Assembly (NCBI GenBank): GCA_003166025.1
Contig: PMWT01000066.1
Coordinates: 28,635-92,634 of the forward strand
Origin: Acidimicrobiaceae bacterium
GTDB lineage: Bacteria; Actinomycetota; Acidimicrobiia; Acidimicrobiales; Palsa-688
DNA: 64,000 bases
Direction: 5' to 3'
How positions within the stretch are numbered: the stretch's first letter is position 1; the number at the start of each line of letters is the position of its first letter. A model generated the notes under the pieces. It was not told the origin of the DNA, did no database searches, and saw only the letters and a list, made by a program, of their open reading frames with translations. Made by a program: the position numbers and the translations under genes. This document shows, in pieces, positions 62,040 through 63,976 of this stretch.

Positions 62040-62123
62040 CGCAGCTCCCAGGACCAGCGCCGGGCTTAACCACCCGGAACTTTCCTCTTGCGGTAAACGT
62101 CAGGATGAGGGAAGATGACAGGG

Positions 62124-62150
62124 ATGTAACTACGGCCTAAGTAGTTACAT
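62124..62150. promoter_or_regulatory. Perfect inverted repeat upstream of whiB-type gene (IR1)
   Basis: ATGTAACTAC-ggcctaa-GTAGTTACAT. Confidence 0.75.
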
Positions 62151-62156
62151 TGGTGC

Positions 62157-62177
62157 TATCCTGGGAACCCCAGGATA
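62157..62177. promoter_or_regulatory. Second perfect inverted repeat upstream of whiB-type gene (IR2)
   Basis: TATCCTGGG-aac-CCCAGGATA. Confidence 0.75.
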
Positions 62178-62214
62178 CGCCCGTCCGAGATATCACAAGC
62201 GATGGGAGCCGCCG

Positions 62215-62529
62215 GTGAACGACATCGTGCGCTTTTTGCGCCTACCGGCCGATGCGAGCGGGCTCCGCTGGGATAGCGAAGTGCCGACATGGCAACGGTC
62301 CGCGAACTGCCTCGGCGTCGATCCCGACCTCTTCTTCCCCGAGCGGGGAGGGTCGACCCGTGAGGCCAAAGAAGTCTGCCGCGGCTGCGTCGTGCGCAAG
62401 GACTGCCTCCAGTACGCCCTGGACAACAGCGAAAAGTTCGGCATCTGGGGCGGCCTCTCGGAAAGGGAACGCCGCCGTCTCCGGCGCCGCCGCAACGGAG
62501 CACCCTACCGGGTCAGCCAGGCCTCCTGA
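62215..62529 (+). CDS. WhiB-family Fe-S transcriptional regulator
   Basis: ANCLGVDPDLFFPERGGSTREAKEVCRGCVVRKDCLQYALDNSEKFGIWGGLSERERRRLRRRR; four Cys, GIWGG turn. Confidence 0.95.
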   Translation: MNDIVRFLRLPADASGLRWDSEVPTWQRSANCLGVDPDLFFPERGGSTREAKEVCRGCVVRKDCLQYALDNSEKFGIWGGLSERERRRLRRRRNGAPYRVSQAS

Positions 62530-63471: not shown

Positions 63472-63592
63472 GAAGTCCCTCCTGGGCCCGGTCGTCGTGG
63501 TCCGGTCACCCTGGTACGGGCCGGCGGCGTAGCTCGGCCGGGGCGATCGGTAGGATAGGTCTAAATAAGCTTGCGCGCCAGGGAGGTCTGTG

Positions 63593-63976
63593 ATGCTTGC
63601 CAACATCTTCGGTGACTGGTACTGGCTCGTCCTGGTCGTCATCGTGCTCTTCGGAGGCAGTCAACTGCCCAAGTTGGCGCGCAACAGCGGCGAGGCGCTC
63701 AAAGAGTTCAAGAAGGCCCACGATGAAGCGACCGGGGCGGCGCCACCGGTGGGGCCGGTGGCCGGCCAAACCGCGCTCACGGGTACGGCGAACACCGCCG
63801 CTCCGGCCTATCCGCAAGCTGAGACGGCTCAAGTCGTTGTGCCGGCCGCCCAAGTGGTCCCCCCGACCGCCGAGGAACGCATCACACTCTCCAGAGCAGA
63901 GCTCGATGCTCTCCTGGCCGCCAGGGAGGCACAGATCAAGGCCGACGAGGCCAGCGGGACAAAGCCCCAGGCCTGA
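63593..63976 (+). CDS. tatA: Sec-independent protein translocase TatA
   Basis: NIFGDWYWLVLVVIVLFGGSQLPKLARNSGEALKEFKKAHDEA. Confidence 0.92.
   Translation: MLANIFGDWYWLVLVVIVLFGGSQLPKLARNSGEALKEFKKAHDEATGAAPPVGPVAGQTALTGTANTAAPAYPQAETAQVVVPAAQVVPPTAEERITLSRAELDALLAAREAQIKADEASGTKPQA

Follow-up and report, generated by a model that had tools for sequence, protein, structure and literature searches.

An inverted repeat upstream of an acidimicrobial whiB gene as part of a probable operator for a MerR-family repressor of the McdR/BldO type

Published work describes the control of whiB genes by two comparable regulators. In mycobacteria, McdR represses whiB2 via the motif AATnACAnnnnTGTnATT, which lies at or around the whiB2 start point (PMC9040748), and the M. 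tuberculosis protein, ResR/McdR, binds the whiB2 promoter with a Kd of 0.33 uM (PMC10336103). In Streptomyces, BldO, a member of the MerR family, protects TGxAATTxCA, a hyphenated repeat that spans the -10 element and start point of whiBp2 (PMC5485038). The motif published for WhiB2 itself is cGACACGc (PMC9040748). We use the term class II WhiB as defined in PMC6282962.

We analyzed a stretch of 64,000 nucleotides from an Acidimicrobiaceae bacterium (the window), for which a sequence-only reading had reported a palindrome in front of a whiB-type gene and had proposed it as the operator of a dimeric regulator. The repeat, ATGTAACTAC-GGCCTAA-GTAGTTACAT at positions 62124-62150, has exactly the perfect 10-bp arms and N7 loop described, and its end lies 65 bp upstream of the GTG start codon at 62215, in agreement with the ~65 bp given. 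The exact 27-bp palindrome occurs once in the window, with no matches in 100 shuffles, and there is no other exact copy in the 5.3-Mb genome. The window holds four perfect inverted repeats whose arms are 10 bp or longer and whose loops span 3-20 nucleotides, compared with a mean of ~2 in 12 Markov controls, although arms as AT-rich as those at 62124-62150 were found in none of these controls. By length alone, the palindrome is not exceptional. The number of inverted repeats of such length, being close to random expectation, is what a functionless chance palindrome would lead one to expect, but both sequence and promoter position are conserved in relatives, and we rejected this explanation as having a negligible probability. 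It is the conservation at the same promoter position, and not a palindrome statistic, that marks the palindrome as functional. Of uniqueness and lack of conservation, which the sequence-only reading had named among the features counting against function, only the first was observed, i.e. the exact 27-mer is unique but the box is conserved in relatives.

The palindrome had not been recognized as a standard actinobacterial box, but the site proved to correspond to a described one, i.e. the McdR/ResR motif and the BldO site. Its best match to the motif of PMC9040748 (GATGACAGGGATGTAACT compared with AATnACAnnnnTGTnATT, forward strand, 62114-62131) has 2 mismatches in 14 positions, and the centres of the window's cores are GT/AC where the BldO form has AT, a difference also seen in many relatives. 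On comparison of the sequences, the McdR/ResR motif and the BldO site are both recognizable as versions of a single unit, ACA-N4-TGTARYTACA-N4-TGT. MerR, the family of McdR and BldO, was among the three candidate regulator families that had been suggested. The proposal that whiB has an operator bound by a dimeric regulator is supported; it is the 27-bp palindrome as the whole operator that is not, since the best motif match lies half upstream of the palindrome and overlaps the predicted -10 element.

What is conserved is one near-palindromic core flanked by ACA and TGT; the perfect inverted arms are particular to the window's genus, and the repeat at 62124-62150 forms the middle of a compound site. 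This site overlaps the -10 element and start point predicted for a gene of the WhiB2/WhmD type. Within the palindrome are two cores 15 bp apart: core 1 (GTAACTAC, 62126-62133), whose distance from the -10 element equals that of the lone core in other genera, and core 2 (GTAGTTAC, 62141-62148), an extra core that is restricted to a subgroup of the family. The site has thereby been enlarged in the window's lineage, where two cores 14-15 bp apart create three dyads, namely ACAGGGATGT of the ACAnnnnTGT type at 62118-62127, a weaker middle dyad between the cores (TACGGCCTAAGTA, 62131-62143), and ACATTGGTGC of the ACAnnnnTGy type at 62147-62156. The palindrome arms are the two adjoining cores, one with AC and the other with GT at its centre, and the perfect inversion results from a flip of one central dinucleotide. 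In 7 of the 9 two-core relatives both cores are of the GTAGTTAC type and share one orientation, and most genera have only one core; we therefore rejected the idea that the unit is one large palindrome. A second inverted repeat, TATCCTGGG-AAC-CCCAGGATA (62157-62177), lies in the leader directly after the operator; its CCTGGG/CCCAGG stem is kept in one genome of the same genus (G001) and not in another genome (G002).

Alignment of orthologous promoters predicts that the -10 element and start point of whiB overlap the site. The predicted -35 element, TTGCGG (forward strand, 62088-62093), aligns with a cTTGCG that most promoters of orthologous whiB genes in the order have, and the predicted -10 element, GAAGAT, follows after 17 bp (forward strand, 62111-62116) at a conserved position (nAnnAT) that precedes the first core by 9 nt in relatives. 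The start point is predicted at ~62123-62125, about the first bases of the palindrome. A generic promoter scan with an E. coli-type consensus called no promoter element here, the -35 element included. A ribosome binding site, GGGAG (62204-62208), precedes the gene predicted to be regulated (62215-62529), both on the forward strand; the gene encodes a class II WhiB of the WhiB2/WhmD type with 104 amino acids (Pfam PF02467, E 4e-26) and is the genome's best match in both the order and the phylum whiB searches. In most of the genomes listed the best match is likewise a class II-type gene, well separated from its paralogues. The predicted target of the site is a class II WhiB (WhiB2/WhiB/WhmD), and none of the six other WhiB genes in the genome has a box upstream. 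A second WhiB gene (G000:C120:92732-92920) lies on the opposite strand ~100 bp past the window's right end, with tatA (63590-63976) shortly before it, so that two whiB genes flank this stretch.

Conservation of the box was extensive. Within the order, 72 of the 79 orthologous whiB genes had GTARYTAC/TGTANNTACA in their upstream regions, compared with 0-2 in Markov controls, and a collection of GTDB contigs, mostly Acidimicrobiales and overlapping the first set, gave 72 of 77 whiB upstreams, those without the box having mostly one-base variants. In close relatives the element precedes the orthologous whiB and most often consists of two GTAGTTAC cores that point the same way. Elsewhere in the order a single core is found, arranged as cTTGCG - 17/18 bp - nAnnAT - nACAnnnnTGTARYTACAnnGGTG. 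Outside the order, where we used the published AATnACAnnnnTGTnATT motif and not the order-derived box model, 50 of 54 whiB upstreams matched it with two mismatches or fewer, compared with a mean of 0.35 in controls. In one family (f83) the 7-10-Mb genomes carry TGTAATTTCA, and in another (f88) most of them carry AATCACATCAGTGTCATT or a close form; from genome size and site sequence we infer that the former is Streptomyces-like and the latter Mycobacterium-like. Four loci from assemblies titled Patescibacteria, Bifidobacterium breve and Candidatus Saccharibacteria in GTDB (L329, L336, L337 and L371) contain whiB genes of acidimicrobial type, three of them with the box, and are probably from mislabelled or contaminated assemblies.

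The palindrome could alternatively act as RNA, i.e. as a 5'-terminal hairpin of the whiB mRNA that makes the transcript more stable or regulates its translation. Transcription is predicted to start where the palindrome begins, the 5' leaders of all 9 two-core relatives fold into a hairpin of 11-13 bp (G-U pairs counted), and two of its pairs are changed on both sides among the nine sequences. However, two adjoining near-palindromes will always pair as a hairpin, and the covariation is equally expected of a symmetric DNA operator. Pairing was found only in the two-core subgroup and not across the whole range of the element: elsewhere in the order and across the phylum the single core is conserved without a hairpin, and the box at the mcdR and ribonucleotide reductase (RNR) promoters is also a single core. 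We therefore rejected the hairpin as a general function for the wider set. As neighbouring near-palindromic cores always fold, and the single core is conserved regardless, a role for the RNA would be at most an addition in the two-core subgroup, and we regard it as an unlikely explanation of the element.

The reading that we favor, an operator for a MerR-family repressor, requires the regulator to be present, and the window's genome does encode an McdR-type MerR protein (G000:C167:12441-13007), which has a MerR_1 domain and 62% identity to an acidimicrobial relative. NCBIfam gave this protein no specific name, and a PDB sequence search with it returned distant MerR-type matches only. Just upstream of its gene is a bifunctional-nuclease gene, as in relatives, and this pair of genes is also adjacent in M. 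tuberculosis (Rv1829-Rv1830). An McdR ortholog was found in 61 of the 63 good genomes of the order, and all 43 genomes tested in the phylum set had an McdR match, one of them marginal. BldO is probably the McdR ortholog of Streptomyces, judging from family, site and genome content. The box also occurs in 29 of 33 mcdR upstreams (a few loci being counted twice). In the window's genome, the mcdR promoter carries ACACTGATGTAACTACCCCCGTGT and, shortly after it, a further GCAACTAC (G000:C167:13062-13087; locus L102, box at 2068) and may also be a multi-core site. Because the mcdR promoter carries the box, McdR probably represses its own gene (contig C167).

Repeats bound by BldC or MtrA have periods of ~9-11 bp, shorter than the 14-15 bp here, which counts against both as regulators of this site. 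The wider suggestion that the operator belongs to another protein, e.g. BldD-(c-di-GMP), BldC, MtrA or WhiB itself, draws on reports that BldD likewise represses Streptomyces whiB (PMC5485038) and that BldC binds direct repeats as multimers (PMC5859096). Against this, the sequence agrees with BldO/McdR sites that were footprinted or mutated and that occupy the corresponding place in the promoter, the box tracks the promoter of the mcdR gene itself, and, in the case of WhiB, the published WhiB2 motif is different (cGACACGc). We consider such a regulator very improbable, even more so than the RNA hairpin.

We used a box model, built from 55 sites of the same order on which it was run, to look for further sites. 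In the window's genome the top match was the mcdR promoter (E 3.8e-4), and the window's own whiB site was a weak match (E 1.3) because its two-core layout is altered. A further match, at C199:40030, was dismissed as chance because it lies within the coding sequence of GAPDH. The best 29 matches in the order that were made into loci were nearly all at whiB or mcdR. An early search with a short pattern gave counts similar to those of the reversed-pattern control and served only to pick candidate loci. In several genomes of the order the box precedes RNR genes, either class II nrdJ or class I with an ATP cone; Pfam confirmed the class II genes at L083 and L094 and the class I genes at L409, L414 and L417. 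It was also seen before RNR genes, recognised by sequence only, at L082, L088, L089, L090, L413, L420 and L421. These positions suggest a link between McdR and RNR, of which we found no mention in the literature passages available.

Taken together, the evidence points to the element being an operator through which the cell-division regulator gene whiB would be shut off by a repressor of the MerR family, an ortholog of McdR/ResR (Rv1830) and probably of BldO; we put the probability of this at about 0.86. This rests on sequence, conservation, position relative to a conserved promoter, the presence of the ortholog and the ortholog's own box, from which we infer binding, repression as the direction of the effect, the start point and the signal. 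Dimers would bind dyads of the ACA-N4-TGTnRYT type on the predicted -10 element and transcription start, and because of this position the bound protein would block RNA polymerase and initiation, as for BldO and McdR. In the window, the three successive dyads would probably accommodate two or three adjacent dimers, and the two-core operator could give tighter or more graded repression of whiB.

The palindrome, previously unexplained, would thus belong to a known class of switch, and what is new is its acidimicrobial form, i.e. the duplicated core, the probable self-control of mcdR and the candidate RNR targets. We give even odds to a broader proposal, in which one ancient switch (BldO in Streptomyces, McdR/ResR in mycobacteria) controls WhiB throughout Actinomycetota, is negatively autoregulated in Acidimicrobiia, where it would also govern RNR genes and so couple division to nucleotide supply, and has had its whiB operator rebuilt as a three-dyad array in the window's lineage. 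This suggests that the Streptomyces sporulation brake and a tuberculosis antibiotic-resilience locus are one phylum-wide division control older than both; our literature search found no paper naming McdR and BldO together. The boxes at mcdR and RNR genes provide testable targets.

Among known systems, BldC direct-repeat arrays share a MerR-like DNA-binding domain and repeated AT-rich elements with this site, but appear to differ in spacing and half-site. The mycobacterial McdR/ResR operator has the same target (whiB2), a position at the start point that corresponds to the one predicted here, an ACAnnnnTGT dyad and AT-rich outer flanks, and the system as a whole is similar in that the window's genome has an mcdR ortholog with an adjoining bifunctional-nuclease gene. 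It differs in that the window has two cores and three dyads, and in that RNR genes are among the box sites of the window's relatives. In addition, mycobacterial mcdR is published as activated by WhiB2 at cGACACGc, whereas in acidimicrobial genomes the box at the mcdR promoter is of the McdR type; GACAC was considered as the WhiB2 motif of such a feedback loop, but by itself is too short a pattern to be informative. The BldO operator of Streptomyces whiB is similar in its MerR-family repressor, its target, its core over the -10 element and start (here the predicted ones), and its form TGTARYTACA, whereas the window has the duplicated cores GTAACTAC and GTAGTTAC. In S. venezuelae whiB is the only target of BldO; here, the box is also at mcdR and, in relatives, at RNR genes.
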